This document shows positions 18,288 through 33,841 of a DNA stretch of 52,688 bases, in pieces (within the stretch, counting starts at the first letter, position 1; each line of letters starts with the position of its first letter). The stretch comes from an uncultured Roseburia sp. (GTDB taxonomy: Bacteria > Bacillota > Clostridia > Lachnospirales > Lachnospiraceae): NCBI GenBank assembly GCA_947567625.1, contig CANONN010000022.1, forward strand, positions 1-52,688, given 5' to 3'. The notes beneath the pieces were generated by a model. It was not told the DNA's origin, did no database searches, and saw only the letters and a program-made list of their open reading frames with translations. A program made the translations under genes and the position numbers.

Positions 18288-18400
18288 AAAGTTACTTTTT
18301 TTATTTTTGATCGTTTTGTTTTTTGCCGGAACTTCCGGGAGAGAGGGGCGGAACTTCCGCTAAAAATAAAGGTTGCGGATAAGGGAGCCATAGGAAGAAA
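18288..18400 (+). promoter_or_regulatory. Tail-island leader repeat, copy 1, with tandem palindromic sites
   Basis: This ~110-bp block matches 26909-27022 in architecture. Elements in order: AAAGTTACTTTTT; a T-rich stretch; palindrome CCGGAAcTTCCGG (18326-18338); palindrome GCGGAAcTTCCGC (18348-18360), centres 22 bp apart; an AAAATAAA stretch; then GATAAGGGAGCCATAGGAAG. The distance from GTTACT to the first palindrome centre is 41 bp in both copies. Two palindromes two helical turns apart suggest tandem operators for a dimeric regulator, or recombinase arms. No sigma-A promoter is evident inside. The block lies between the CPBP promoter and the tail-tip gene. Confidence 0.7.
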
Positions 18401-18617
18401 GAAATGCATGCAGAATATTCCACTCATGTATCAATATTTGTTATCAGGAGGTAGAAAGGCGGAATAAACTGCTCGATGGCAATTCATTCCACATGCCGAA
18501 CAAGTTCGGCAGGAATTTGTGCCGAAGCGTCACAAATTCTGCGATGGCGGAGCGATATCGGACATTTCGCTCGCCCTCTTGGCGCAAAACGCTTCAGAAT
18601 GGAGGAAAAAATAAAAA
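18401..18617 (+). repeat. Hairpin-rich leader of the tail-tip gene (repeat-like)
   Basis: This 217-bp stretch has no convincing gene. It holds an orphan AGGAGG site (18447-18452) and three hairpins in a row: TGCCGAAC/GTTCGGCA (18494-18511), AATTTGTG/CACAAATT (18514-18538), and GGCG-AGCGA/TCGCT-CGCC (18546-18575). It ends at the GGAGGAAAAA ribosome site of the tail-tip gene. A short open frame from ATG 18476 runs through the hairpins and ends just inside the tail gene, but reads as translated repeat. The dense palindromes suggest a dispersed intergenic repeat; only a genome search can confirm. Confidence 0.5.
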
Positions 18618-21600
18618 ATGAAAAAACCATGTGAAGTAATTGAGATCAACAAGATCACAGGGCGGATGGAGCCGCCCAGGCTGCTGCTGATGAACCGTTC
18701 TTTTTCCGTGATCGGGGTGATCGGTTTCTATGAAAACTGGAATATTTCGCTTGTCGCAAACGGGATGGACGAGATAGCGTTCCAGGTTCACAAATCGATC
18801 AATGGGAGCGCGTGCCCGATCTGGGATGAGCTGGTCGACTTAAAAATTGTCGACGTCGCAGAATTCGGCAGGTTCGAGATTTCTGTCAATTATACGGACA
18901 ATACGCAGACGGTCAAATCAGTCCACGGCGTATCGCTGGAGACAGAGCTGGCACAGATACGGCTGTATGATTTCCATGTCAACGACGAGGATGCGGCTGA
19001 TATGGAGCTGACCGAGTGGAGCGCGGAAAACTATGATGAAGAGGGCAATTTTATCCCGACGGTCTTTTATAATCCACAGGATACGAAACACTCGCTTCTG
19101 CACCGTGTTCTGGCGGACAAGGCGCCGCACTGGAGTATCGGCTATGTGACGCCCTTTATAGCGCTGGAGGAAAGCAGCCGTCCCGAGCCGTCCACCGCTT
19201 TTCAGAGGACCTACACGGCTGACGGAGAATCCATCTATGATTTTTTGACCGGCACGGTTGCTGCCGAGAGCAATGTCGTATTCCTCTTTGACACGCGCAG
19301 CAGACGTATTCACTGTTACAGCCTGTGTGACTGCATCGACCCGCAGACCGGAACCGTCATGCGCGATGCGAATGGGGAGGAATTGAGAGGGATTGGAGAA
19401 GATACCACGGTGTTTGTCTCCAAGGTCAGGCTGGCAAAAGAGATCAGTATCGTATCCCATAAGGACAACGTGAAAAATTGTTTCCGCGTCCGGGGCGGTG
19501 ACGATGTGATCACGGATTTGGTGCGCGCCGTCAACATGAACGGTTCCGGTTATATTTATCGTTTCGCGGATTTCCAGTATAACGACATGTCCAAAGAATT
19601 GAGGGACAAGATCATTTCTTACCAAACGCTGATGGCATCGGAAGAAGTACAGGAGGAATATTATGGAGAAAATGGTATCTATACCAGAATGTGCCGGGCT
19701 TACGAAGATTTGGCCTGGTATGAATCTTCTATGATGCCGGATACGGAAAAGCTGACCGAGCCGGGAGAGGCTAAGGCGCAGTATGAAAAGGTGTTCGCGG
19801 CGTTAGACATGCCAGGCGGGGCTGCCGTGGCGGTGTCCTCTATGGGCAATTATGACGACCGTCTTTTTGTGGGCGTGACAAACAACATCGAGGCGTATGC
19901 AAAAATATTCCTCGACCCGCGCTTTGACTTGGAAATTGTGCCGGACACGGCGTCCTATTCGCATAATCCGCAGGAAGATGCGGAGGGAAAAGATTGCGGC
20001 ACCGGGGTATGGCAAGGGAAAATCCGCGTCACGCAGCACAGTGACGGGACGAACGTATATCCGGTGGATATGGCCGCCGCACAGTTCCTGCGGGTGGCCG
20101 TAAACGGCGACGAAGAAACGTTTGCCAGACAGAAGCTGCACAAAGCGATGTCAGAGGCTTCGATGTCAGACATTGATTTTAAAGTGAGCGCGATGTCCGA
20201 ACAAGAGATGAGAGACTATTTCGGGCAGTTTGCCTTAAACCGCCTGCAATCTTTTTCCGACGGATACCATGCCTGCATCAGTATTCTGACGACAAGAGGG
20301 ATGGCAAGCACGGACGAACAGTATAACGAGCTGTATGACGCCTACCAGAAGCGGCAGAAGATTGTGGATGAGGTGAAAGCGGTGCGCAGGGCGCAGGCGG
20401 ACGAAACCCGGGCACGGATTGAGAGCATCAAAAAGGAGCAGCAGATCTTTCAATACGGAGATGAAACCCATGTGGGACATGATTTTCGGACCTACCTGGG
20501 GGAGGCTTTGTATTTAGAGTTTTGCAGTTACCGGAGAGAAGACACCTATACCAACAGCAATTATTGTTCCGACGGTTTATCAACGGCAGAGTGCCTGAAA
20601 AAAGCCAGGGAACTGGTGGAGGCGGCGGACAAGGAGCTTGGCAGGGCCTGTGTGCTGCAGCGCACCGTGTCCACATCCCTGCTCAATTTGTTTGCGCTCC
20701 CGGAGTTTGAACCGCTCTACGACAAGTTTGCCTTGTTTAACTACATCAGGGTCGGCACGGAGGACGAGGTCTTAAAGCTGCGTCTGATCGGCATAGAGTT
20801 TAACGGCGAGAATGTGGGGGATATTCAGGTCACCTTCTCGGAGCAGGTCGAAGCGGTCGACGGGAGTATGAGCGATCTGCAAAGTATCATAAAACAGGCG
20901 GGCAATATGGCTTCGAGCTACCCTGCGACTATTTTACAGGCAAAAAAGGGGGAGACGGCGCAGAATACGTTTCTTGACATTTACCGCAATGGGCTAAACG
21001 CCGCCAGAACCATGCTTACCAATAATGACAGCAATGAGGTGACAGTCACACAGTCCGGCATTCTTTGCAGACGCATGGATGACGAGGGATTTTATGGGGA
21101 TAAGCAGTTTCGGGTGACGGGGAATATCATGGCGTTTACCGACGATAGCTGGCAAACCGTGAAGCTCGCCGTCGGGGAGACGACGCTTTATAACCCGATC
21201 ACCGAAAAGTATGAGAAAAAGTATGGCGTGCTCGCGCCGGCCCTCGTCGGCGAGCTTATAGCAGGCGGGGCGCTGCATATCGGCAACGAAAACGGTTCCG
21301 TGCAGATCACCGGCAGCGGGATTAAGATCACGAAGGGAGAGATTACCTGGGGGAAAGGAGATGACGGCGTCTCCGCGCCGGCGATTGCGGATATTGAGGG
21401 GTTGTCGGGTTATTTAGAACAACTTGACGGAAGGATACAGACATACTCGCAGAAAGAGGACCCCAAAAAGACGGCCGGCATTGGCTGGGCGGATGAGGAC
21501 AATGCAAATCACTTGGGCGACGTGTGGATGAATACGGAAAACGGTATTGTCTATGTGTATACAAAAGATACCGATCAGAAATACAAGTGGCAGGAGACGC

Positions 21601-23120
21601 AGGATTCCAGGCTGCGAGAGCTCGCGCAGAAAAAAGCGCAGATTTTCACCAGTAAGTCTGCCCTGCTCTCGGAGGGCTACAAAGTAGGCGATTTGTGGAT
21701 ACTGGGAAAAGATGATGTAATGAAGGACTACAAAGTGGGGACGATTCTGGTTGCCGTGGAAAGTGCGAAGCCGAACGGGTTTCGGGAAGGGCATTGGGGC
21801 GAGACTACGGTTAATGAGGCTGCGGATGCTATGACACGAGTGGTAAAAGTGGAAGACTTTAAAGATAAAGTAGATCAAGCACTTTGGAGAAATAAGGGCA
21901 CGATTATTAACGAAAATTATGTTATTTCACCCAGCATAGGAGTTGGATACGGCTGTTGGATGAATGATGACTATATGGTAGAAATTGACCCAAAACATGA
22001 GTCGAAGGATACCTATAATCAGTACATCTTTTGTGTCCGTGATAAAAAGAAAAACGGAGAGGCTTCTGTTATAATGGGAGTGAAAACAAATGGCGATGGT
22101 TTTTTTAAGGGGACACTATCTGGTGCGACAGGAACATTTTCCGGTAAGTTATCAGCTGCGACAGGTTCGTTTTCTGGAAGTTTGACTACTGATAAAATTT
22201 TATTGAATCCTGATTCTAATGTAAACAAAGGGTGTATTATGCTAAATGATTTAACAGAAAGTGATGGTAATACTTATAAAGAGATCACGTTAATAAATGA
22301 CTTAGAAAGTAATACTGATAACTTGGCAATTAGTTTTGGGTTCAAGAACTCTGATACTTCCCAATATTATGCTACAGCTGGATTAGCCATAGTAAAAAAA
22401 TCAGGGAGTATCTACAATAAATTGTACTCAAATACTTATTTGGGAGGTAAAATATATTTTAGGAATAATGTTTATCTAACAGACCAGTTAGAAAGGTGTA
22501 TTTATTGTTCTGGAAAATTTAATACGGAGGGAGCTGTTTCTATAGGCAATAAGGATCCTGGTTCTTATATGCTTTATGTGAATGGTTCAGGATATTTGAA
22601 TGGTGACTTATACTGTAACAGTCCTGTGAAAGGAAGTATGGTACATATGTTTGTGCAAAATGGCCAGCATAAAGGTGCGCTGGCTGTCAACGGTGATAAT
22701 TTTGGACTTTTTGATACTACATATGAACATTGGTTAATCCATGTAAACGCAAGCGGTAAAGTCACAACAGCTAGTTCGCTATCAGATCAACGTTTGAAAT
22801 CTGGTATTAAAGAAAGTTCTGTAAATGATGCATTGCATCAGATCTTAGCGATTAACCATAGGGAGTTTACGTTAGACTATAACAACGAGTACAAAGATAT
22901 CGGGTACATTGCACAGGAGTTAATGGAAATAAATCCTAAAATGGTGATTGAACCAGATGACAAAAAGGACTACTATCATATTGATACTTTTTATTTGGAA
23001 TCGATTATCACAAAGGCGATGCAGGAATTTTATTCGGAATTTGAAAACAGTCTTAAAAGGATTTCTCAATTGGAACAGGAGAATAAACAGTTGAAAGAAA
23101 TGATGAAAAACAAGAGTTAG
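18618..23120 (+). CDS. Phage tail-tip / receptor-binding protein with C-terminal S74 chaperone domain
   Basis: A 1500-residue tail protein. Residues 1 to ~400 resemble the siphophage tail-associated (Tal, prophage endopeptidase tail) hub. The middle contains helical and beta segments with the tail-fibre pattern GDVWMNTENGIVYVYTKD. At about 1140-1190 a beta repeat reads FKGTLSGATGTFSGKLS, AATGSFSGSL. The C-terminus is a peptidase S74 intramolecular chaperone domain starting SLSDQRLKSGIKE; it should trimerise the fibre and cut itself off before the Ser (about residue 1389), leaving a 112-residue coiled-coil-ended chaperone. DNA from about 21,850 to the end is clearly AT-richer than upstream, a mosaic junction. 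No lytic domain was recognised. Confidence 0.88.
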   Translation: MKKPCEVIEINKITGRMEPPRLLLMNRSFSVIGVIGFYENWNISLVANGMDEIAFQVHKSINGSACPIWDELVDLKIVDVAEFGRFEISVNYTDNTQTVKSVHGVSLETELAQIRLYDFHVNDEDAADMELTEWSAENYDEEGNFIPTVFYNPQDTKHSLLHRVLADKAPHWSIGYVTPFIALEESSRPEPSTAFQRTYTADGESIYDFLTGTVAAESNVVFLFDTRSRRIHCYSLCDCIDPQTGTVMRDANGEELRGIGEDTTVFVSKVRLAKEISIVSHKDNVKNCFRVRGGDDVITDLVRAVNMNGSGYIYRFADFQYNDMSKELRDKIISYQTLMASEEVQEEYYGENGIYTRMCRAYEDLAWYESSMMPDTEKLTEPGEAKAQYEKVFAALDMPGGAAVAVSSMGNYDDRLFVGVTNNIEAYAKIFLDPRFDLEIVPDTASYSHNPQEDAEGKDCGTGVWQGKIRVTQHSDGTNVYPVDMAAAQFLRVAVNGDEETFARQKLHKAMSEASMSDIDFKVSAMSEQEMRDYFGQFALNRLQSFSDGYHACISILTTRGMASTDEQYNELYDAYQKRQKIVDEVKAVRRAQADETRARIESIKKEQQIFQYGDETHVGHDFRTYLGEALYLEFCSYRREDTYTNSNYCSDGLSTAECLKKARELVEAADKELGRACVLQRTVSTSLLNLFALPEFEPLYDKFALFNYIRVGTEDEVLKLRLIGIEFNGENVGDIQVTFSEQVEAVDGSMSDLQSIIKQAGNMASSYPATILQAKKGETAQNTFLDIYRNGLNAARTMLTNNDSNEVTVTQSGILCRRMDDEGFYGDKQFRVTGNIMAFTDDSWQTVKLAVGETTLYNPITEKYEKKYGVLAPALVGELIAGGALHIGNENGSVQITGSGIKITKGEITWGKGDDGVSAPAIADIEGLSGYLEQLDGRIQTYSQKEDPKKTAGIGWADEDNANHLGDVWMNTENGIVYVYTKDTDQKYKWQETQDSRLRELAQKKAQIFTSKSALLSEGYKVGDLWILGKDDVMKDYKVGTILVAVESAKPNGFREGHWGETTVNEAADAMTRVVKVEDFKDKVDQALWRNKGTIINENYVISPSIGVGYGCWMNDDYMVEIDPKHESKDTYNQYIFCVRDKKKNGEASVIMGVKTNGDGFFKGTLSGATGTFSGKLSAATGSFSGSLTTDKILLNPDSNVNKGCIMLNDLTESDGNTYKEITLINDLESNTDNLAISFGFKNSDTSQYYATAGLAIVKKSGSIYNKLYSNTYLGGKIYFRNNVYLTDQLERCIYCSGKFNTEGAVSIGNKDPGSYMLYVNGSGYLNGDLYCNSPVKGSMVHMFVQNGQHKGALAVNGDNFGLFDTTYEHWLIHVNASGKVTTASSLSDQRLKSGIKESSVNDALHQILAINHREFTLDYNNEYKDIGYIAQELMEINPKMVIEPDDKKDYYHIDTFYLESIITKAMQEFYSEFENSLKRISQLEQENKQLKEMMKNKS

Positions 23121-23244
23121 ATCAAGTCAAGACTCGGTAAGCAAGGTAAAGAATTCGGATAAAATAAACGCGAAATCAGCGATTATTTACAAGTTGATTG
23201 CAATTTGCGCGGTGCGCAGAAAAGAGTGCGGCTTAATGATTAAA

Positions 23245-23285
23245 TCATCAAAGATGAATTCCGTAAAAGAATTCATCTTTGATGA
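23245..23285. terminator. Hairpin between convergent tail-tip and LRR genes
   Basis: Perfect 17-bp inverted repeat TCATCAAAGATGAATTC (23245-23261) and GAATTCATCTTTGATGA (23269-23285), loop of 7 nt. T runs are weak on both strands, so termination strength is uncertain, but the position between convergent genes fits. A degraded version (AAAAGATG with CATCTTTT, about 25396-25426) lies at the same place next to the second LRR copy. Confidence 0.6.
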
Positions 23286-23295
23286 AATAGTAACA

Positions 23296-25179
23296 TTATA
23301 TGATGATATTGACAGTGGGTTTCTGGCCTTTTTTCTTGAAAGTATTTTGATATATCTTAAGCTTTTTTGCCGGTACTTTGATCTGGGCTTTCGGGTGGAT
23401 GCCTTTGAGTGCGTTTTTTCCAACTTTGGTGAGTTTTTTGGAAGTTATGGTAAGTGTTCTTAATTTTTTGCAACCCTGAAAAGCTTCCGCACCGATTGTT
23501 TTCACTCCTTTTCCGATCGTGACAGTTTTTAGTTTGGTGCATCCTGAAAATGCACGTTTTCCGATGGTTTCTACATAGTTTCCAATCGTTACCCTGGCAG
23601 CCTTTTTGTTATTCTTAAGTGCGTTGTCATTTATGGCGGTTACTCTATAGGTGATATCATCAATCGTGACTTTATCAGGGATGATGATATGAGTTTTGGA
23701 GCTCCGAGTTCCTGTGAATGAAACGGTTCCGCCGGTTAAGCCGCCTTTTATCACTTTATAAGATGCTTCTGCTTTGGAGAGAATGTCACCCTTTTGCGGG
23801 ATATCGCTGTTTTTAATGCTTGTGTATGTTATTTCCCCGCATACGGTACAGGTGAGTATTTTTTTCTTTGATTTGACGTCAATGATACCTTGGTCATATT
23901 TATGGCCTAATGGCGGATCATCTTGAGGAATATAGATGTGCCCACCGTTTTCATCAATGTACATTTCTTTGCAGAATTCACAATAGATTTCGGTTTTACC
24001 ACATTGTGTGCATGTAGGTGGCGTGTATTTGCGTATTATTTTATGTTTCTGGCGTGGAATAAAATGAATCCAGCCGGTGTCTTCCCCACAGACAGCGCAG
24101 CGGCCTTTCGTTCCACCGGCATTTTTGCAGGTGGCTGGGATATCCTCACCTGGGACAATGGTGTGTCCGGTAGCCGGGATAGCTTCCCCGCTGCTGATGC
24201 TTTGATTGCAAACAGAACAGTGGCTGCCTTGTGTCGCTCTGCCAGGTAATGTACAGGTAGCCGGGATAGGCGGGTCAATAACGGGCTTGTGTCCGGTGGC
24301 CGGGATAACGTCTCCACCGCTAATGACTTGGCTGCAAACAGAACAGAGAGTTATTGGTGTTCTGCCAGGTGATGTGCAGGTGGCTGGGATACCAGAGCCT
24401 GAGACAACGGTATGCTCGATGGTAGGAATCGTTTCCCCGCCGTTTGCAAAAGTTCCACATATGGTGCAGAGTTCGCCTGCCGTCCTGCCGACGGTGGAAC
24501 AAGTAGCCGGAATTTCAGGCATTGCAACTGTCTCTTGATGTTTTATACAACTGAATGGTATGTCATTTTCCGTAAAATAGTTTTGAGCATAAGAACCTGC
24601 ATTTGTATAAACAGGGACATATTTTAACCAGCCCAGAAAAAATGCGCCGTCTCCGATTTTAACAACACTGTCTGGAATTTCCAGTTTTTCAAGTGAATGA
24701 CAGTCTTGAAATGCTGCCTCACCGATCTCTGTTAGGTTTTCTGGCAGAACTAATTGGTTTAGTTTTTTGCAGGCGGAAAAGGCATAGTCTCCAATTTTCG
24801 TTAGGGTACTTGGCAAAGAAACTGTTTCCAGATTATAGCAATCCCGGAACGCACCGCCATTGTATTTTTTTTCGGGATGTGCGATAATGGATTTAATTCC
24901 TTCCGGGATAATGATATGTTTTACGGTATCGCGCTCCCAAGAACTATAAGCATAGTAGTCTAAACAGATTGTGGTTACTTGCTTTCCGTTTATTACAGAT
25001 GGAAACACAATCGTTTCTTCATTACCATAATATTTACTGATACTTAATGTTCCGTCATCATTTTCGAAATATAAAAACCCGTCACCCGAATCCGAATCGA
25101 TAGCTTTGACATCAACCCTGCCAATGCCAATCAGCGCCATGATCATACAAACCATAACAACCCATCTTACTTTTTTCAT
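23296..25179 (-). CDS. Secreted BspA-like leucine-rich-repeat protein with Cys-rich repeats
   Basis: A 627-residue exported protein. Seen: signal peptide (MKKVRWVVMVCMIMALIGIG), N-terminal LRR_5 repeats of the form FRDCYNLETVSLPSTLTKIG and FQDCHSLEKLEIPDSVVKIG, a middle block of five to six Cys-rich units of about 40 residues (C-x(n)-CSVC, then GGxxIPATGH) that look like metal-binding ribbons, and C-terminal LRR_5 units (FSGCTKLKTVTIGKGVKTIG). LRR_5 proteins usually bind surfaces or host proteins. No sorting motif is evident. GGGGGA lies 7 bp before ATG 25179; the ATG at 25206 lacks a site. It is antisense to the tail genes, behind its own promoter, and duplicated just to the right. Confidence 0.85.
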   Translation of the reverse strand: MKKVRWVVMVCMIMALIGIGRVDVKAIDSDSGDGFLYFENDDGTLSISKYYGNEETIVFPSVINGKQVTTICLDYYAYSSWERDTVKHIIIPEGIKSIIAHPEKKYNGGAFRDCYNLETVSLPSTLTKIGDYAFSACKKLNQLVLPENLTEIGEAAFQDCHSLEKLEIPDSVVKIGDGAFFLGWLKYVPVYTNAGSYAQNYFTENDIPFSCIKHQETVAMPEIPATCSTVGRTAGELCTICGTFANGGETIPTIEHTVVSGSGIPATCTSPGRTPITLCSVCSQVISGGDVIPATGHKPVIDPPIPATCTLPGRATQGSHCSVCNQSISSGEAIPATGHTIVPGEDIPATCKNAGGTKGRCAVCGEDTGWIHFIPRQKHKIIRKYTPPTCTQCGKTEIYCEFCKEMYIDENGGHIYIPQDDPPLGHKYDQGIIDVKSKKKILTCTVCGEITYTSIKNSDIPQKGDILSKAEASYKVIKGGLTGGTVSFTGTRSSKTHIIIPDKVTIDDITYRVTAINDNALKNNKKAARVTIGNYVETIGKRAFSGCTKLKTVTIGKGVKTIGAEAFQGCKKLRTLTITSKKLTKVGKNALKGIHPKAQIKVPAKKLKIYQNTFKKKGQKPTVNIII

Positions 25180-25231
25180 AAATATCCCCCTGACATAAGC
25201 TTTCAAATACTACATCTCATTTCCTATTACC

Positions 25232-25260
25232 AGTATATGCCAGCTGATGTGTGAAGTCAA
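25232..25260 (-). promoter_or_regulatory. Sigma-A promoter for the intact LRR gene
   Basis: On the minus strand: TTGACT (25260-25255), a 17-bp spacer, TATACT (25237-25232). Near-consensus in boxes and spacing, 52 bp upstream of the start codon. No equivalent remains upstream of the truncated second copy. Confidence 0.8.
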
Positions 25261-25433
25261 GGATGGGCGGGATTTTCTGGAAGTTTTAAAGCGTTATCGA
25301 CATGGAAATACGAGGGGAGAGACAGAGCGCGAAAACAGCAGTAAATCAAGTCAAAGTCGTGTAAGCCAGCGGAAAGAAAAATACTAAATTTAAAAAGATG
25401 AATTCCGCATGGGAACCCATCTTTTATGAAATA

Positions 25434-26890
25434 TTATTTAATGATACAGACAGTAGGCTTCTGGCCTTTTTTCTTGAAAGTATTTTGATATATCTTAAGT
25501 TTTTTTGCAGGTACTTTGATCTGGGCTTTCGGGTGGATGCCTTTGAGTGCATTTTTTCCAACTTTGGTGAGTTTTTTGGAAGTTACGGTAAGTGTTCTTA
25601 ATTTCTTACAGCCCTGAAAAGCTTCCGCACCGATTGTTTTCATTCCTTTTCCGATTGTGACAGTTTTTAGTTTGGTGCATCCTGAAAATGCACGTTTTCC
25701 GATGGTTTCTACATAGTTTCCAATCGTTACCCTGGCAGCCTTTTTGTTATTCTTAAGTGCGTTGTCATTTATGGCGGTTACTCTATAGGTGATATCATCA
25801 ATCGTGACTTTATCAGGGATGATGATATGAGTTTTGGAGCTCCGAGTTCCTGTGAATGAAACGGTTCCGCCGGTTAAGCCGCCTTTTATCACTTTATAAG
25901 ATGCTTCTGCTTTGGAGAGAATGTCACCCTTTTGCGGGATATCGCTGTTTTTAATGCTTGTGTATGTTATTTCCCCGCATACGGTACAGGTGAGTATTTT
26001 TTTCTTTGATTTGACGTCAATGATACCTTGGTCATATTTATGGCCTAATGGCGGATCATCTTGAGGAATATAGATGTGCCCACCGTTTTCATCAATGTAC
26101 ATTTCTTTGCAGAATTCACAATAGATTTCGGTTTTACCACATTGTGTGCATGTAGGTGGCGTGTATTTGCGTATTATTTTATGTTTCTGGCGTGGAATAA
26201 AATGAATCCAGCCGGTGTCTTCCCCACAGACAGCGCAGCGGCCTTTCGTTCCACCGGCATTTTTGCAGGTGGCTGGGATATCCTCACCTGGGACAATGGT
26301 GTGTCCGGTAGCCGGGATAGCTTCCCCGCTGCTGATGCTTTGATTGCAAACAGAACAGTGGCTGCCTTGTGTCGCTCTGCCAGGTAATGTACAGGTAGCC
26401 GGGATAGGCGGGTCAATAACGGGCTTGTGTCCGGTGGCCGGGATAACGTCTCCACCGCTAATGACTTGGCTGCAAACAGAACAGAGAGTTATTGGTGTTC
26501 TGCCAGGTGATGTGCAGGTGGCTGGGATACCAGAGCCTGAGACAACGGTATGCTCGATGGTAGGAATCGTTTCCCCGCCGTTTGCAAAAGTTCCACATAT
26601 GGTGCAGAGTTCGCCTGCCGTCCTGCCGACGGCGGAACAAGTAACCGGAATTTCAGGCATTGCAACTGTCTCCTGATGTTTTATACAACTGAATGGTATG
26701 TCATTTTCCATAACATAGGTGTGTGCATAAGAACTTGGATTTGCATAAACAGGGATATATTCTAGCCAGTTTAGATAATATGCACTCTTTCCAATTTTAA
26801 CCACGCTGTCAGGTATCTCTAGTCTGTTAAGTGAATAGCAATGTTCAAATGCTGCAACACCGATTTCTGTTAAATTTTCCAGTAAAATGT
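25434..26890 (-). pseudogene. Truncated duplicate of the LRR/Cys-repeat gene
   Basis: This copy repeats the gene at 23296-25179. From the Cys-rich block to near the C-terminus the proteins differ at only a handful of residues (for example GKGVKTIG against GKGMKTIG), while the N-terminal LRR portion is clearly diverged. It has no signal peptide or promoter: similarity stops at about the ENLTEIG unit (about 26890). Upstream the open frame runs on to 27044 through the antisense strand of the tail leader, giving an artificial N-terminus. It is probably not made as a functional secreted protein. Degenerate copies of the 3' flank (ATCAAGTCAA) show that the duplication included sequence just downstream of the tail-tip gene. 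Confidence 0.8.
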
Positions 26891-26908
26891 AGTTCGCTTT
26901 TATTACGC

Positions 26909-27022
26909 AAAAGTTACTTTTTCCCTTTCCGCTCCGTCTAATTTTCCCCGGGACTTCCGAGTAATTGGGCCGGAACTTCCAGGCAAAATAAACTTTTGGC
27001 GATAAGGGAGCCATAGGAAGAA
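26909..27022 (+). promoter_or_regulatory. Tail-island leader repeat, copy 2
   Basis: Second copy of the block at 18288-18400. AAAGTTACTTTTT starts at about 26910. The first palindrome is imperfect here (GGGAcTTCC, centre 26954) and the second perfect (GGAAcTTCC, centre 26976), again 22 bp apart. The conserved GATAAGGGAGCCATAGGAAG begins at 27001, one base further from the second palindrome than in copy 1. The LRR duplicate is broken at its left edge, so this block marks a module boundary. The tube gene starts 58 bp downstream. Confidence 0.7.
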
Positions 27023-27047
27023 AAATCCCAAAAAATAATATCATTGA

Positions 27048-27080: not shown

Positions 27081-27836
27081 ATGACAAATGCAAACATGGC
27101 AAACAGAGAAGTATGCGATTTAATCTTCGTGGATTACGCGACAGGGAAACCGTTTTTAAACCTGGATTTTGCAAACGTATCTACGACAGAGCTGACCGGC
27201 GAGTCGGTATTTGCCTATGGCGGCAAAGGACACCCAAAGCGGATGCAGTTCGCCGGCGAGCGGGGCGGCACGATGACGATCGAGACGCAGATGCAGACCG
27301 TCAAACTGTGGCAGTTAATCACCGGCGGCAGGCTTGATACTTCCGCAAAATTTGTGGCAAGGGAAGAGGCTGTTGTGGCTGCGGACGGCAAGACCGTTAC
27401 CTTAAAGGCTGCGCCTGCGGCGGGAACAGTTTTTGTGTATCCGGCAGAAGACGACTGCGGAGAAGCGCTTCCATGTACGAGTGCGGGTGAAACCGTGACA
27501 CTTGATGCGGCGCTTGGCAGCGGCAGCAATGTTATTGTTTACTACATGAAGGAAGTGACAAAAGATGTGCAGCGGATCAATATCAAATCGACCAGCTTCC
27601 CGAAGAACTTCAGGGTTTACGGGGATACCGTCATGAAGACGGAGGATGACAACCTTTTGCCGTACAAGCTTACGGCCTACAAGGTGGCGCCGCAGAGCAA
27701 TCTGTCCTTAAGCTTTTCCAACAACGGCGATCCGGGTTCCATCACCATCACCTGTGATCTGATGGCGGACGCGGACGACAATATCCTTGATCTGGTACTG
27801 ATTGAGGAGAATGAGGATGCGCAAAGCCAGCCGTAA
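27081..27836 (+). CDS. Phage tail tube-like structural protein
   Basis: A 251-residue protein, beta-rich by eye, without signal peptide or TM. The N-terminal part (DLIFVDYATGKPFLNLDFAN) and the SLSFSNNGDPGSITITCDLM segment near the end resemble major tail (tube) proteins of siphophages. A central insert (about residues 90-150, AEDDCGEALPCTSAG region) could be an exposed Ig-like or decoration loop. Position directly before a tape measure gene is what is expected for a tube protein. It has a hairpin-linked ribosome site. I am fairly sure it is a tail structural protein and less sure that it forms the tube. Confidence 0.65.
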   Translation: MTNANMANREVCDLIFVDYATGKPFLNLDFANVSTTELTGESVFAYGGKGHPKRMQFAGERGGTMTIETQMQTVKLWQLITGGRLDTSAKFVAREEAVVAADGKTVTLKAAPAAGTVFVYPAEDDCGEALPCTSAGETVTLDAALGSGSNVIVYYMKEVTKDVQRINIKSTSFPKNFRVYGDTVMKTEDDNLLPYKLTAYKVAPQSNLSLSFSNNGDPGSITITCDLMADADDNILDLVLIEENEDAQSQP

Positions 27837-28071
27837 GGCAAAGCGGGTGGAAGTCCTTTCGGAAAACGTATATGGCAATAGGGAAGGGCGGCTGCCTGTC
27901 AGAAAGAGGGGCGGTGGTTCACAGTGGATGTGGGCTGCCGTCCCTATAAATTTGCAGATGAAAATCCATAACGAAGCGGTTGTGAATCCGGCCGGCGCTT
28001 ACGGAACCGACAGAAAAGTTAAAATGAAAATGCCGTTTATGCGGCGGAAAGAGAGGAAATATGAGCAATAA
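27817..28071 (+). CDS. Possible small basic protein between tube and tape measure genes
   Basis: An open frame of 84 residues starting at ATG 27817, 7 bp after GAGGAG, overlapping the end of the tube gene in another frame and running 11 bp into the tape measure gene. In siphophages this position usually holds tail assembly chaperones, often made by programmed frameshift. The sequence (MRKASRKAKRVEVLSEN at the start, very basic throughout) does not resemble a known chaperone, and its last third is translation of the family D hairpin cassette. A good ribosome site is the only support; it may be a chance frame. Confidence 0.2.
   Translation: MRKASRKAKRVEVLSENVYGNREGRLPVRKRGGGSQWMWAAVPINLQMKIHNEAVVNPAGAYGTDRKVKMKMPFMRRKERKYEQ
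28028..28060 (+). promoter_or_regulatory. Hairpin plus Shine-Dalgarno cassette, family D, copy 2
   Basis: Hairpin GCCGT-TTAT-GCGGC (28032-28045), with one G-T pair in the stem, followed by GGAAAGAGAGGAAAT and the ATG of the tape measure gene. The 15 bp after the hairpin are the same as in copy 1 apart from one added T there. Confidence 0.75.
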
Positions 28072-31000
28072 AAATAAATCAAATAAAATAACAGTCCAGG
28101 CGGTGCTTGACAAAGTAAAATCGCTGGCAAAATTAAAGTCAGGTATGAAAGCGCTCGCATCAAAGCTGACAGTCAAAGTAAAAACCGCGCTGGACAAAAA
28201 AGCGGCGCAAAAAGAGCTTGATAAGAGCTTGAAGAACATGGTTCCCAAAATCAAATTGGAAGCGGAAACGTCAAAAATAGTGAAAAAATTAAAGAGTTTG
28301 GGTCGGCAGAAAGCGCGTATTATCATTGAGCCAGATCTTGACAATTCACAGGTAAGGTCCGTTTTGGAGGAAACACAAAACGAAATAAAAGAGCTTTCTA
28401 TGAAACCGATACAGATAACGGCAAAAGAAACTGGTTCGCAGACGGCACCATCAGGCGCTTCCGGCGGCGGCAAGCCAAAAGGGGGCGGGGCAGCGAAAGA
28501 AGCCGTTTCCCAAAATGAAAGCCCGGGGATCTTATTTTCCGGCGTCAAGGAAGCGACGCTTGATCTGGTGGAATTTTTGGACAAAATGAGCGTGCTGGAG
28601 GGCTCGGTGTCTATCCTGGATCAATTGAAAAACAAAGACTATGAATCTATGGTGAAAGGCCTGCTTCATGCAGCCGAGAGCACAACCCGGCTGACAGGGG
28701 CCTTGTCGCTGCTTGACGGTGAAATGAGCGCGGAGAAATTGGAGAAAATCGGGCAGGCATGCATCGGACTGAGCGAGGGGCAATTAAAGCTGGTCTTGTC
28801 GGCCCAGGAACTTGGAAATGAAGAACGGCAGGCGATATTGGCCGGAATGGGCATGGAAGAACAGCAGCGGGAGCAAACAATAGCAACGCTTGGATTTGCA
28901 GATGCGCAAGATGTGGCGACGGCGGCGGCCTTTTCTTTTAAAGGCGCATTAAATGCCATAAAAGCGGCATGGGCGTCCAACCCGGTTGGGGTAATTGTCA
29001 CAGCGATCACGACGGCGGTGTCCCTCGCATCCACAGCATTTTCCTACTTTGAAAAGCAGCGCGAGGAGGAGGCGCAGGCGCTGAAAGATTCCATTGCGGA
29101 GTATGATTCTGCGACCGCAGAGCTTAAGAATATTAACGCCGAATTGGAAGAACATGGCAAAAAGCTGGATGAGCTGGCGGCAAAAGATAAGCTTACCTAT
29201 GTCGAGAAGGGGCAGCTAAAGGAGCTGCAGGAACTCACAAAAGAGCTGAGGATACAGGCCGACATGGAGGAGCGGAAGGCGGCGCGTTCTGCCACAGAGA
29301 TGGCCCACGGCACAATGAAGGCGTATAAGGAGGAATACGGCGATTATGAGATTTCCCAAGATGCCGTCAACGAACATTTAAAGTATGATGCAACGGGCGC
29401 AAACGTCCAGTTGGCGGATGAAAACGATATTTCAAAAAATCTTGCATACTTGTCGCAATTTGAGGCAAAGCTTGCGGCGGCAAAGGAAAAATTGTCAAAT
29501 CCAGGGAACCTTACGGAGCACGAGATTGCCTGGTTGGAAGAAGATTGTGATACCTATATGGAAAGCATCAATGAATTATCCGGGCGTTTGGATACGGCAT
29601 ACTTGGATTTGGCAGAGAAACAGGCCAATATGAAACCGGAATACGCGGCGCTTCTGGCAAAGCAGGCGAACGGTGAAGTGCTTTCCGCGATGGAACAGGA
29701 GACCGTGAAATCGTATGAAGCGATAAGCGGCAACCTGGATTTGATGTACAAATATCTCTTTCGGGATGACTGGAACAATATGGAAGTCACAAAGATTTTT
29801 CAGACAGAGAATTTGGAACAGACAAGGGACGGGCTCTTAGAAATGGCCAAGGCAGGGAAACTGACGGCTGAAACAATAGCAAAAGATTTTCCCAACCTGA
29901 ACCAGGCGATACAGGAGAGCGGAATAGTTCCAAAGGAGGGCGAGAGTGCCGCGGAAGTATTTTGTAAGAGAATGAGAGAAGAGGCAAGGACCTGGACCAA
30001 AGACGTGCCGCTAACCTTTGAAGAGATGTTTCATTCTGCTGAATTTTCTTCCGGCAAAGAAGCACTGATGGAGCTGGCAAAATCCGGTGAGCTTTCCCCA
30101 TCTGTCTTATTATCCTCGGAACAATATGCGGATTTGCTTACCAAAACAAAATTGTCGGCAGAGGAAGCGGCGGAAAAAATTCTTGCGCTGTTGTCCGTAC
30201 AGGAAAAGCTGGCGGCGGCGTCAAAGGGGCTCAACAAACTAAAATCTGCCTACGATGAATTTCAGAAAGCGGGATCGGTTTATGCGGATACCTTGGAGGA
30301 GCTGCCGGATGTAATCAAGCAGTTGGAGGGCTTCGACGCTTTTTCCAAAGTTGTTTCTGACCCCATGCAGGGGGCAGAGAACATGCAGCAGGCATTCGAT
30401 GGCATTGTAAAAGAATATCTGAGCAGTCAGGATACGATGGAAGCTTTGCTCGGCGCCACAGACGCGGAAAAGCAGACTTATATTGCGAACCTCAAACAGA
30501 TGGGGATTGCGAATGCTAAGGAGCTTATAAACCAGAGTATTGGTATCTTAGACCAGAACAGGCAGTTCGTCAATGAGGCGGAGGCAGAGTATATGCAATA
30601 TTTGGCGGATAAGGACACGGCGGATACCTCGTATCTGGAAAGTTTGGCATCGAAAAACGGTCAGCTTGCCAATGCCCTGGGCGCTCCATACGAGGCGGAT
30701 TACCAAAACTGGTGCGGCCTTTTGGAAAAGAAATCAGAAATTTACAATGAATTTGTAGAGCGTATCGGCGGTTCTTATAATGAAGACTTAGACGCGGCAG
30801 GCAATTTGCTGGCAAATGGAAAAAATGTCAATACATTTAGTTTACAGGAATATTATACCTATAAAAATGCCGCCGATCAGGCTGCAAAGGAAGCAGAAGA
30901 AGCGTCAAACAAGATTAGGCTGGATTTATTAAAAGTAGATCCTGTTTTTGATCCCACTTACACGCCCAAAACTTCTGCATCATCTTCTAACCCATCGTCT

Positions 31001-33841
31001 GGCTCATCTTCTTCTAATGAAGAAAAAGAACAGGAAGCCACTGTCGAAACCTTTAATTTTATCGAAACCCTCCTAAACCGTCTTGCCAGCGCATTTGAAA
31101 AGCTGAAATCTGCGGGTGCTGACGCCTTTTTGACGCTGGCCGCGCGCGCCAAATCATACGAATCGGCGCTTTCCAATGTAGAAAAACAGATCGATACACA
31201 GCAGCAGGCGTATCACACCTATATGGAAAAGGCGTACGCGGTCGGCCTCGACGAATACTGGGCGGCGCAGGTGCAGAGCGGAAGTATGAACCTGGCAGAC
31301 GTCACGGACGACGGGTTAAAAGAAAAGATCAAAGAATATCAGGAATGGTATGAAAAAGCCCTCGCCTGCGCCGATGCGGTGGAAAGCTTAAAGCGCGAAC
31401 AGACCGAACTTATGCAGGCAAAAATCGAGCTTTTCGTCGCGCAGTACGATAACCTGCTCGAAAAGCTGTCCGGCAAAAACGACCGAATCCAGGGGCGCAT
31501 CGACTTAAAGGAGGCGTGGGGATTCTCTGCCGGCAAGGCCAATTACAAAAATATGAACAAAAATCTCCAACAGCAGATTGCCTATACGATCGAACAGAAC
31601 AGAGAGTTAGAGAATCTGAAATCTACGGTAAAGGAGGGCTCCGAAGCGTGGTACGAATACAACAAGCGCATCGACGCGAACAACGCTTCCTTACAGGAAA
31701 TGAAAAAGACTATGGCGGAAAATGCCAAAGCCGCGGCCGCGTTGGCCGGGGAGACGGCAGCTTCCAAAGTGGAAAAGCAGGATGACAAAAAGGAGCTTTA
31801 TGACGCTAAGATAGACAATGCCACGACGGCAAAACAAAAAAATAAACTGATCGACAAAAAGAGCGGCGCGATTGACAGGCAGCAGGATGCCTATAACGAT
31901 GCCGTGGCCAAAGACAAAAAGAATTTAAACAGCGCCAAGCGGGCGATCAAGAACTTTAAGGGCACGAAGGAGAACAAATCCCTGCTCAAATCCTTGAAAA
32001 AATACACCAAATCGGGTACGAAAATACCAAAAGATGTTCTGGACAAAGCGGCGGGATTAAACGATAACGGAAAGCTTTACAACGCATGCGTGCAGTACAA
32101 TGCCTATCTGGAAGCGTACAACGCAGACAAGGCGGCAGCGGAATTGTTTGCGGAGACCGCTAAGAAAGAAAAGACAGGGCTGGCCCTGGAGAAATTTCAA
32201 AATATCGCAGCCGGGTATGAGCGCCGCACGAGTCAGCTCGACGACAGGAAAGCGGCGATCGGCAGCCGGATTGCGGAGAACGAGGCGGCGGGAAGAAAAG
32301 CGGACAAATCCGCCTACGAAGAGCAAAAAACGATCAACGAGCGAAAAGTTTCTGTCCTGCGCGAGGAAAAAGAAGCGCTCGAGCAGAGCATCAAAGACAT
32401 TCCGGCGGGCACCGATGAATGGCAGGAAGCAAATGAAACGATCAAACAGGTGGCGGAATCTATTTCAGAGTGTGTTAAGGATACCTGTGAACTGAATGAT
32501 GCGATCAATCAGATTCACTTTGATGCGTTTGCCCAAATGTCGGAATCTATCAGCAATATCATAGGGGAGCAGGAATTTTTGCGGGAACTGTCCGCGCACG
32601 AGAAAATGACAGACGAAGAGACAGGGGAGTTTACAAAGGCGGGTTATGCGAAATTGGGTTCGCTGTCGATTGGCTATCATGCATCGGCAGAGCGTGCAGA
32701 CAGGACAGGGGCAGAGGTCAGGGAATTGCAGCGGATGCTGGAATCGGGCGCGCTCCACAGTGACGTTTTGGGCGTAACATTCAACTCTGTGGATGGTCTG
32801 GAGAAAAAATTAAAAGAAATGTATGGGCAGTGGCAGGACAATATCAAGGAAACCTACAGTCAGGAATCTGAGATAGCAGAGCTTAGGAAAGAACAATATA
32901 ACGCCGAGATCGAGCTGTTTGGCAAGCTGGTGGATGCAAGGAAAGAAGCCCTGCAGGCGCAGAAAGATCTTCATGATTACCAGAGGACGATTGCGGAGAA
33001 AACCGACAATATTGTAACGGTGCAAAAGCAGATCGCAGCGTATCAGGGCGATTCGTCGCAGGAGGCACTCGCAAGGCTGCAAAAGCTGCAAAAAGAACTT
33101 GCAAACCGCCAGGAGGAGCTTCGGGAAACCGAGTATGAGCGGTATATTTCTGACCAGGAAGAACTGTTAAATAAGCTGTATGAAGAGTACGAAGAGCTGA
33201 TGACAAAAAAGCTCGAGGATTTTATGCAGCTGGTGCAGAGCGGACTTGGACTGGCAGACGAACATTTAAAAGAGGCATGTGACTATATGTCAAAGATTGC
33301 GGATGAAAGCGGATATACCGTGGAGACAAAAGCATTGTTTGACAATGTCACAAACGGCATTGCAGGCAGCGTCAAAGAGCAGATTGCGAAAGTCGTCGAA
33401 GCGATAGAACAGAATGGAACCAAAGCAGAGAACGGCGGGGACAAAGAGGGCGAACAGACGGCTTATCCCACAATAGACCGCAGCAAAGTTGAGAGGGAAC
33501 ATGATTTGGGAGTGGATATTACCCGGCCTATCGAGCGTACAGCCGATCTTTTGCAGAACGCCCAGATGAGAATCCCGGACATGCAGACCGTGCTCGAGCA
33601 TATACCGCCGACGTTTGGAATCCCGCAGCTTCCCGACATTTCTAATATCTTACCGGAACATATAGGAAATACGAGAACGGTCGGCGACTGTACGTTCCAA
33701 TTTGACCTGCCGAATGTGACGGATTCACAATCGTTGATAGAGGCGATACGGGATGACAGTAAAGTACAGAGAGCCATTCGGGATGTTTCGGTGGGACAGC
33801 TTACCGGGAACGGGCGATTGGAGGTGAAAGGGATACGATAG
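28061..33841 (+). CDS. Phage tail tape measure protein
   Basis: A 1926-residue, mostly alpha-helical protein. Seen: a basic N-terminus, long heptad-rich coiled coils, one hydrophobic stretch at about residues 297-330 (ALNAIKAAWASNPVGVIVTA, then further hydrophobic residues) typical of tape measure proteins, a Ser-rich linker at about 966-990 (SASSSNPSSGSSSSNEE), and a second helical half. By the usual ~0.15 nm per residue it would specify a tail of about 290 nm. It would scaffold tube polymerisation and be ejected on contact. No lysozyme or peptidase domain was recognised. It follows the tube gene with its own hairpin-linked ribosome site. No Dit or other tail gene follows. Confidence 0.9.
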   Translation: MSNKNKSNKITVQAVLDKVKSLAKLKSGMKALASKLTVKVKTALDKKAAQKELDKSLKNMVPKIKLEAETSKIVKKLKSLGRQKARIIIEPDLDNSQVRSVLEETQNEIKELSMKPIQITAKETGSQTAPSGASGGGKPKGGGAAKEAVSQNESPGILFSGVKEATLDLVEFLDKMSVLEGSVSILDQLKNKDYESMVKGLLHAAESTTRLTGALSLLDGEMSAEKLEKIGQACIGLSEGQLKLVLSAQELGNEERQAILAGMGMEEQQREQTIATLGFADAQDVATAAAFSFKGALNAIKAAWASNPVGVIVTAITTAVSLASTAFSYFEKQREEEAQALKDSIAEYDSATAELKNINAELEEHGKKLDELAAKDKLTYVEKGQLKELQELTKELRIQADMEERKAARSATEMAHGTMKAYKEEYGDYEISQDAVNEHLKYDATGANVQLADENDISKNLAYLSQFEAKLAAAKEKLSNPGNLTEHEIAWLEEDCDTYMESINELSGRLDTAYLDLAEKQANMKPEYAALLAKQANGEVLSAMEQETVKSYEAISGNLDLMYKYLFRDDWNNMEVTKIFQTENLEQTRDGLLEMAKAGKLTAETIAKDFPNLNQAIQESGIVPKEGESAAEVFCKRMREEARTWTKDVPLTFEEMFHSAEFSSGKEALMELAKSGELSPSVLLSSEQYADLLTKTKLSAEEAAEKILALLSVQEKLAAASKGLNKLKSAYDEFQKAGSVYADTLEELPDVIKQLEGFDAFSKVVSDPMQGAENMQQAFDGIVKEYLSSQDTMEALLGATDAEKQTYIANLKQMGIANAKELINQSIGILDQNRQFVNEAEAEYMQYLADKDTADTSYLESLASKNGQLANALGAPYEADYQNWCGLLEKKSEIYNEFVERIGGSYNEDLDAAGNLLANGKNVNTFSLQEYYTYKNAADQAAKEAEEASNKIRLDLLKVDPVFDPTYTPKTSASSSNPSSGSSSSNEEKEQEATVETFNFIETLLNRLASAFEKLKSAGADAFLTLAARAKSYESALSNVEKQIDTQQQAYHTYMEKAYAVGLDEYWAAQVQSGSMNLADVTDDGLKEKIKEYQEWYEKALACADAVESLKREQTELMQAKIELFVAQYDNLLEKLSGKNDRIQGRIDLKEAWGFSAGKANYKNMNKNLQQQIAYTIEQNRELENLKSTVKEGSEAWYEYNKRIDANNASLQEMKKTMAENAKAAAALAGETAASKVEKQDDKKELYDAKIDNATTAKQKNKLIDKKSGAIDRQQDAYNDAVAKDKKNLNSAKRAIKNFKGTKENKSLLKSLKKYTKSGTKIPKDVLDKAAGLNDNGKLYNACVQYNAYLEAYNADKAAAELFAETAKKEKTGLALEKFQNIAAGYERRTSQLDDRKAAIGSRIAENEAAGRKADKSAYEEQKTINERKVSVLREEKEALEQSIKDIPAGTDEWQEANETIKQVAESISECVKDTCELNDAINQIHFDAFAQMSESISNIIGEQEFLRELSAHEKMTDEETGEFTKAGYAKLGSLSIGYHASAERADRTGAEVRELQRMLESGALHSDVLGVTFNSVDGLEKKLKEMYGQWQDNIKETYSQESEIAELRKEQYNAEIELFGKLVDARKEALQAQKDLHDYQRTIAEKTDNIVTVQKQIAAYQGDSSQEALARLQKLQKELANRQEELRETEYERYISDQEELLNKLYEEYEELMTKKLEDFMQLVQSGLGLADEHLKEACDYMSKIADESGYTVETKALFDNVTNGIAGSVKEQIAKVVEAIEQNGTKAENGGDKEGEQTAYPTIDRSKVEREHDLGVDITRPIERTADLLQNAQMRIPDMQTVLEHIPPTFGIPQLPDISNILPEHIGNTRTVGDCTFQFDLPNVTDSQSLIEAIRDDSKVQRAIRDVSVGQLTGNGRLEVKGIR

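Follow-up and report, generated by a model that had tools for sequence, protein, structure and literature searches.

In the chromosome of an uncultured Roseburia sp. (Lachnospiraceae), two units of phage tail genes are each preceded by a copy of the same leader, a short arrangement of an upstream word, small dyads and a 20-base box. Our reading, to which we give a probability of about three in four, is that a phage-derived RNA polymerase of the YonO class, a single-chain enzyme with two barrels, uses this leader as its late promoter, and that copies of the promoter have come to stand before tail units of the chromosome. The stretch of DNA analysed (the window) has 52,688 nucleotides (assembly GCA_947567625.1, contig CANONN010000022.1, positions 1 to 52,688) and is ordinary chromosome, with genes for SecDF, SHMT, seryl-tRNA synthetase and LepA around the tail genes.

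Both leader copies lie on the + strand, at 18288-18400 and 26909-27022, where the earlier note had described blocks of the same order, and shuffle tests showed the blocks to be non-random. The box, GATAAGGGAGCCATAGGAAG, which we propose as the core promoter, is exact at 18378-18397 and 27001-27020, with a mean of 0.00 matches expected at up to three mismatches (100 shuffles). At the same tolerance the dyad pair was found twice against 0.06 expected, and none of the 100 shuffles contained two. The first copy begins with the word AAAGTTACTTTTT (18288..18300), followed by two dyads GGAACTTCC (18328..18336 and 18350..18358); in the second the word AAAGTTACTTTTT (26910..26922) is followed by GGGACTTCC, a dyad that is one base off (26950..26958), and then by GGAACTTCC (26972..26980). 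The dyad centres are 22 base pairs (bp) apart in both copies, as the earlier note had it, but its distance of 41 bp to the first dyad has to be corrected: from the first base of AAAGTTAC to the first dyad centre it is 44 bp in both copies, or 39 from the centre of the word. The second dyad centre lies 24 and 25 bp from the box, respectively. Behind the first copy comes a gene for a tail fibre or tip protein of 1500 amino acids (aa) with a C-terminal S74 chaperone domain (18618..23120, + strand), and behind the second a tail tube gene (phrog_2729, 251 aa, 27081..27836, + strand), one of three tube copies in the genome, and a gene for a tape measure of 1926 aa (28061..33841, + strand).

The rest of the draft genome shows the same association. 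The box occurs five times at up to three mismatches, every time exactly: twice on the window contig (C22), twice on contig C65 and once on C89. A profile search of the genome returned the same five places (weakly on the reverse strands too) and one chance-level match (E 0.17). All five copies head tail or lysis units. On C65 one copy precedes a holin and an endolysin, and the other a tube, a 322-aa gene and a tape measure of 2210 aa; the copy on C89 precedes a tube, a 147-aa gene, a DUF6558 tail protein, a BppU-like protein and an S74 fibre. There are exactly three tube genes in the genome and all three stand behind a leader, which, together with the five units, speaks for our reading. The tube genes are under purifying selection (ratio of nonsynonymous to synonymous substitution rates 0.13-0.15 among the copies of this genome). 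At synonymous sites these copies differ by 25-54%, and by 67-72% from the tube of a second bacterial carrier described below (genome G013); yet the box is identical at 20 of 20 bases in the five genomic copies and at 18 of 20 in G013, and the identity of the boxes against such divergence of the tubes also speaks for a site that is read. The shared regulation suggested by the earlier note is supported as far as a common tail-gene leader goes (5/5 units, 3/3 tubes), although the probable reader, a YonO-type polymerase, had not been foreseen.

Five copies on three contigs, and a tube present three times, might also be expected if recombination or transposition at the leader spread tail modules, the other use suggested for the blocks. 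All five, however, lie immediately before the 5' end of a unit and are directed towards it, the phage records described below have one copy at one fixed place, and no recombinase was found among the annotated genes beside the leaders (not every open reading frame (ORF) of C65 and C89 was scanned). We consider such a site hardly credible and set it aside; duplication of the units by ordinary homologous recombination is possible.

Relatives of the tube were sought in one genome per species (84,980 species), which gave 47 tube loci. Their titles name Lachnospiraceae or other Clostridia, apart from a few that say no more than Bacillota or bacterium. In 34 of 55 clustered sequences, some of them too short to reach it, there is a gene for a protein of about 910 aa, and one member of this family matches the Pfam RdRP family at 2e-10. 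In our genome this polymerase is encoded on contig C41, in the order divergent repressor gene (helix-turn-helix, Cro/CI-type), polymerase, HU-like gene and tail chaperone. In front of the polymerase gene stands TTGACA-17-TATGAT, an almost perfect promoter of the host type, flanked on each side by two GCAAAAATGC repeats, while no sigma-70-like site was found on the + strand before either window unit; this difference, too, favours the leader as a site from which the polymerase would start. We also tried GCAAAAATGC as a regulator site of the leader and rejected it, as its three window matches (4406, 24119 and 26257) all fall outside the leader.

Searched by tblastn, the polymerase of this genome finds Enterocloster phage PMBT24, in a protein annotated as RNA-dependent RNA polymerase (E 7e-9), and a 176-kilobase (kb) faecal phage record (42% identical). 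The catalytic Asp triad (D613/D615/D617) is invariant in 32 aligned proteins. A structure predicted for the G013 polymerase (predicted local distance difference test 80, predicted template modelling score 0.81) retrieves from the PDB plant RDR2 and fungal QDE-1 chains at ranks 1-21 (E 8e-16 to 9e-12), followed at rank 22 by the crAss-like phage polymerase 6vr4; the two viral models that rank first are phage proteins bearing the name RNA dependent RNA polymerase. The predicted fold resembles the two-barrel one of QDE-1 and RDR2. Around these genes we noted, in addition, that another genome of the same genus (G427) contains three YonO-type polymerase matches (23-30% identical; contigs C18, C35 and C45), and that a gene divergent from the polymerase gene and near it encodes a protein family with members in 30 of those 55 sequences (such as L034 3378-5207 and L028 4146-5513, - strand); of two members scanned for GmrSD_N, one scored above the cut-off and one below.

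The leader and the polymerase also occur together outside this genome. With the box alone as query we found one carrier among 397 genomes of the family, G013 (CAJTHL010000008.1, from another genus), and one among 2.9 million viral contigs, L130. Both possess the polymerase (67% and 68% identical to that of our genome, respectively) and an HU-like gene. The polymerase of L130 led in turn to three further contigs, with polymerases 94%, 75% and 75% identical to it, and in this reverse search all three proved to have the leader behind HU. All four phage contigs therefore contain the leader (E 7e-8 to 3e-12), once per record and 10-15 bp behind the HU stop codon. In G013 it overlaps the HU stop and precedes the chaperone and the tube. 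In the 142-kb phage record, homologues of the portal, the tape measure, DUF6558 and the fibre lie downstream of the leader on the same strand; in the part examined of the 114-kb record, the downstream matches to portal and tape measure are weak. Each of the six genomes or records with a leader has a close polymerase, and it counts in favour of our reading that carriers found by the box have the polymerase while contigs found by the polymerase have the leader.

The converse comes from genomes with distant polymerases. Six whole genomes whose polymerase is 25-43% identical to ours were searched, and none of the six gave a leader match better than E 0.004; among the weak profile matches in other genomes (E 0.004 or worse) five loci were read and none is leader-like. 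Within the genus the leader was found, with stricter filters, in one of 61 genomes and the polymerase in seven, the next closest being 44% identical; the genome with that polymerase (G419) has no leader, its best match being partial (E 0.009). One of four genomes of the genus of G013 has the leader. The absence of the leader where the polymerase is distant again points to a specific pair. Other searches were along these lines. In the remaining tube loci, 46 bacterial and five viral, a search that allowed five mismatches and asked for an upstream dyad detected no leader; a profile run over 30 loci or records, not all of which include the polymerase gene, found none besides L024; and the leader was not found in the 176-kb phage record (polymerase 43%). 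The box also has five more near matches, in four genomes, but dyads are missing in front of all five. A scan for dyad pairs at up to two mismatches gave a few pairs in L022, L037, L041 and L054, and a dyad pair was matched in the virus contig L131, in each case without a box.

Comparison of ten aligned leader copies gives A.AGTTA and ATAAGGGA.CC.TAGG.A as the invariant parts, with dyads about 25, 47 and 87 bp upstream of the box. A start of transcription at the GG of CATAGG would be our guess. The outermost dyad, AAAAGT-T-ACTTTT, is symmetric in most copies and broken in G013, and the spacing of the inner two is 21 rather than 22 bp in G013 and in the holin copy on C65. The GGAAcTTCC palindromes had been taken as fixed parts, which holds for their position and symmetry, but not for their arms (GGAA..TTCC), partly altered in G013 and three phages. 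In a test of the inner dyads of G013, L132, L133 and L134, at places chosen beforehand from an earlier look at the copies and with two of the phages close kin, one and none of 5000 mononucleotide shuffles, respectively, reached the symmetry sums, and none reached both. Between two related phage copies, an outer base of one arm and its partner in the other have changed together (C..G versus T..A). That the dyads of these four sequences keep both their symmetry and their position also favours our reading. The resemblance of GGAACTT to the -35 box of extracytoplasmic function (ECF) sigma factors, also raised earlier, is not supported: other bases take its place in the phage copies, and there is no -10 at a constant position. 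Searching specifically for an ECF promoter (GGAAC with a -10 about 16-17 bp on), we found no conserved sequence at that distance, and GGAAC is not kept in the phages. A host sigma promoter within the leader was rejected as well, the best -35/-10 pairs falling at different places from copy to copy.

A further way to explain these features is that the leader acts as RNA, a 5' untranslated element (a site for processive antitermination or for a translation factor) with small hairpins and a single-stranded box. Some dyad arms would pair with G-U, a possible 16-codon ORF follows one copy, and three of the copies of this genome fold better than their shuffles (z -2.0 to -4.6). The other seven of the ten, though, give z -1.5 to +1.0, the ten copies have no fold in common, no Rfam match was found in the window, and centres two helical turns apart fit DNA better. 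An RNA element is accordingly highly unlikely to us. Because symmetry is kept with changed arms and there is no common RNA fold, we read the dyads as probable DNA sites of a dimeric protein. The ORF just mentioned belongs to a small observation of its own, namely that the fibre and holin copies share ATGCATGC after the box (window 18404-18454; L006 near 16400, - strand), and in the fibre copy it is this sequence that opens the possible 16-codon ORF.

Dimers on DNA would also suit a promoter of the host RNA polymerase with a late phage activator, bound to dyads two helical turns apart and with GATAAG as a weak -10. With 21-22 bp between their centres and a distance of about 25 bp to the box, the dyads do resemble tandem activator sites, and GATAAG has four of the six bases of a -10. 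Yet the conserved box, of 17-20 bases, is longer than a -10 needs, the six carriers all have a close phage-type polymerase, and in the phages and in G013 the leader is right behind HU, the neighbour of that polymerase; no activator gene was identified, although no systematic search for one was made. Taken together, this makes an activated host promoter unlikely, and we return to the leader as promoter of the YonO-class polymerase.

A way to place this promoter is to compare it with the Bacillus phage SPbeta, in which YonO begins to transcribe the late genes at a point upstream of yonK (Forrest et al., 2017; PMC5467207). The SPbeta order is yonR (a divergent repressor), yonP, yonO, yonN (DNA-binding), a gap of about 1.7 kb and yonK, so that the late start would lie in the gap between yonN and yonK. 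Our locus and SPbeta have in common the order repressor, polymerase, HU, with yonP as one extra small gene in SPbeta, and the position of the leader in phages, behind polymerase and HU, would by analogy match the region of the YonO late start. This gene order, the predicted fold and the Asp triad are the reasons for assigning the polymerase to the YonO class. The two systems also resemble each other in the single-chain two-barrel polymerase and in late structural and lysis genes as targets. They differ in the far diverged sequence of the polymerase, in the single late operon of SPbeta, with head genes, against at least five units here, and in the promoter, left open there and here a candidate with a defined consensus. 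The YonO paper leaves the promoter sequence to further work and offers only speculation on the role of YonO-like proteins in bacterial main genomes (PMC5467207); passages of PMC8270828, PMC11534266 and PMC5848175 do not give the promoter sequence either. Text searches of an open-licence library brought up neither the element nor the system in any title or abstract listed. The late promoters of T7-type phages are read by a single-chain polymerase, have a long strict consensus with a purine-rich end, are about 23 bp long and lack upstream dyads. The leader is similar in its strict consensus, purine-rich end and single-chain polymerase, and differs in the unrelated polymerase family, its length and its dyads.

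Several observations weigh against this interpretation. The leader was found outside this genome in only one bacterial genome and four phage contigs, the latter being two closely related pairs. The stretch of SPbeta searched contains no copy of it, and coordinates that would place the published SPbeta start on the sequence were sought and none found. The polymerase operon on C41, tail chaperone included, has no leader in front, so that part of the tail set must be read together with the polymerase operon; our genome-wide counts covered tubes, chaperone and polymerase, and leaderless tail genes may exist, as may further leader copies in a draft that is 93% complete and in 110 contigs. Moreover, contig C41 breaks off right after the chaperone gene, and its neighbours might be C65 and C89. 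As for the polymerase, the template modelling (TM) scores of the G013 model to QDE-1 and RDR2 are only 0.39-0.48, neither our polymerase nor that of G013 matches Pfam RdRP at E 0.01, two phage relatives score close to the curated cut-off of 23.8 bits, one a little below it (L132, 22.5) and one a little above (L134, 25.3), with L053 at 40.3, and a profile of 12 polymerases reaches QDE-1 in the PDB only at E 0.73; from sequence alone the class assignment is weak.

The same side of the balance holds a second polymerase clade, formed by the 176-kb phage record and its kin and by four bacterial genomes with polymerases 42-44% identical to ours. Here a conserved block close to AAGTTACATAGGAGAGG lies between the polymerase gene and HU, roughly 25-61 bp from the former, and in most cases a small dyad, variable in sequence, precedes it. 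It was located behind the polymerase gene in L017, L029, L042 and L112 and in the phage loci L100, L141-L145 and L147, so that 11 of 12 sequences match at up to four mismatches, L146 matching at five and elsewhere; L026 (43%, no HU gene seen) has no clear block and was left out of this count. The pattern was drawn up with the alignment already known, and matches to it are not rare (66 in 292,430 bases at up to five mismatches). The block is possibly the promoter of the second clade; it shares the words GTTAC and CATAGGA with the leader, a likeness that may be due to chance. In phages, the genes for GOLLD, skipping-rope and DUF3800-VIII RNAs and several tRNAs were also noted behind the polymerase and HU genes (L100 9855-10345; L134 9456-9543; L099 9410-9475), a hint that some large phage RNAs may be made from this kind of late promoter.

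As we would picture the system, in phages the promoter stands once, just behind the polymerase and HU-like genes, and in this bacterium the tail and lysis genes, without SPbeta-type head genes, would be divided among five or more units, in two loci at the least, with a separate copy of the promoter for each unit. Once repression is relieved, the host RNA polymerase would transcribe the genes for the phage-type polymerase and HU; the phage-type enzyme would then start at the box, helped by a dimeric factor on the dyads, and the units would fire together, tails would assemble, and holin and endolysin would release them. The absence of head genes was examined with two SPbeta-type families, the portal and one further head-region protein. 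The portal family is missing from all 14 bacterial genomes with chromosomal tubes (ours included) and present in all three related virus records, and among 14 control genomes B. subtilis alone has it; the second protein shows the same pattern in the same 17 genomes or records. Whether in this gut bacterium a domesticated orthogonal phage polymerase and its promoter form a private circuit, controlled by a repressor, in which at least five units in at least two loci with three tubes, two tape-measure lengths and several fibres would give more than one type of headless tail particle, we regard as evenly poised.

Known F-type tailocins and monocins are single clusters under the control of the host polymerase. 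The genes described here resemble them (as genes alone) in combining non-contractile tail genes with holin and endolysin in the absence of the tested head genes, and depart from them in units that lie apart, several tubes and tape measures and a proposed dedicated polymerase. The C22 units are on a 52.7-kb contig that has no polymerase and about 18 kb of other genes on each side; only these units are seen to lie apart from the polymerase, and the tail genes do not form the one contiguous cluster of an F-type tailocin. Among other tail loci, L025 has two tube ORFs and repeated tape-measure pieces, and in L021 and L051 tape-measure ORFs and small ORFs are repeated, one of these giving weak zinc-ribbon matches below curated cut-offs.

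If confirmed, the leader would offer a defined candidate, known from phages and two bacterial genera, for the promoter of this kind of polymerase, which the first description of the enzyme had left open. It would also suggest a job for the YonO-like proteins of bacterial main genomes, that of coordinating separate tail units, since one enzyme could switch on separate tail and lysis units together. Short templates would allow promoter and job to be tested, and a specific pair of polymerase and promoter from the YonO class could serve as a laboratory expression tool.

Lastly, genes of the BspA type, with leucine-rich repeats, adjoin leader-bearing tail units both in the window (23296-25206 and 25434-27044, - strand) and on C65 (L006 16866-17996). 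The ORF at 25434-27044, listed with a candidate start only, crosses the second leader copy as it stands, and two of the BspA-type genes point away from a leader.

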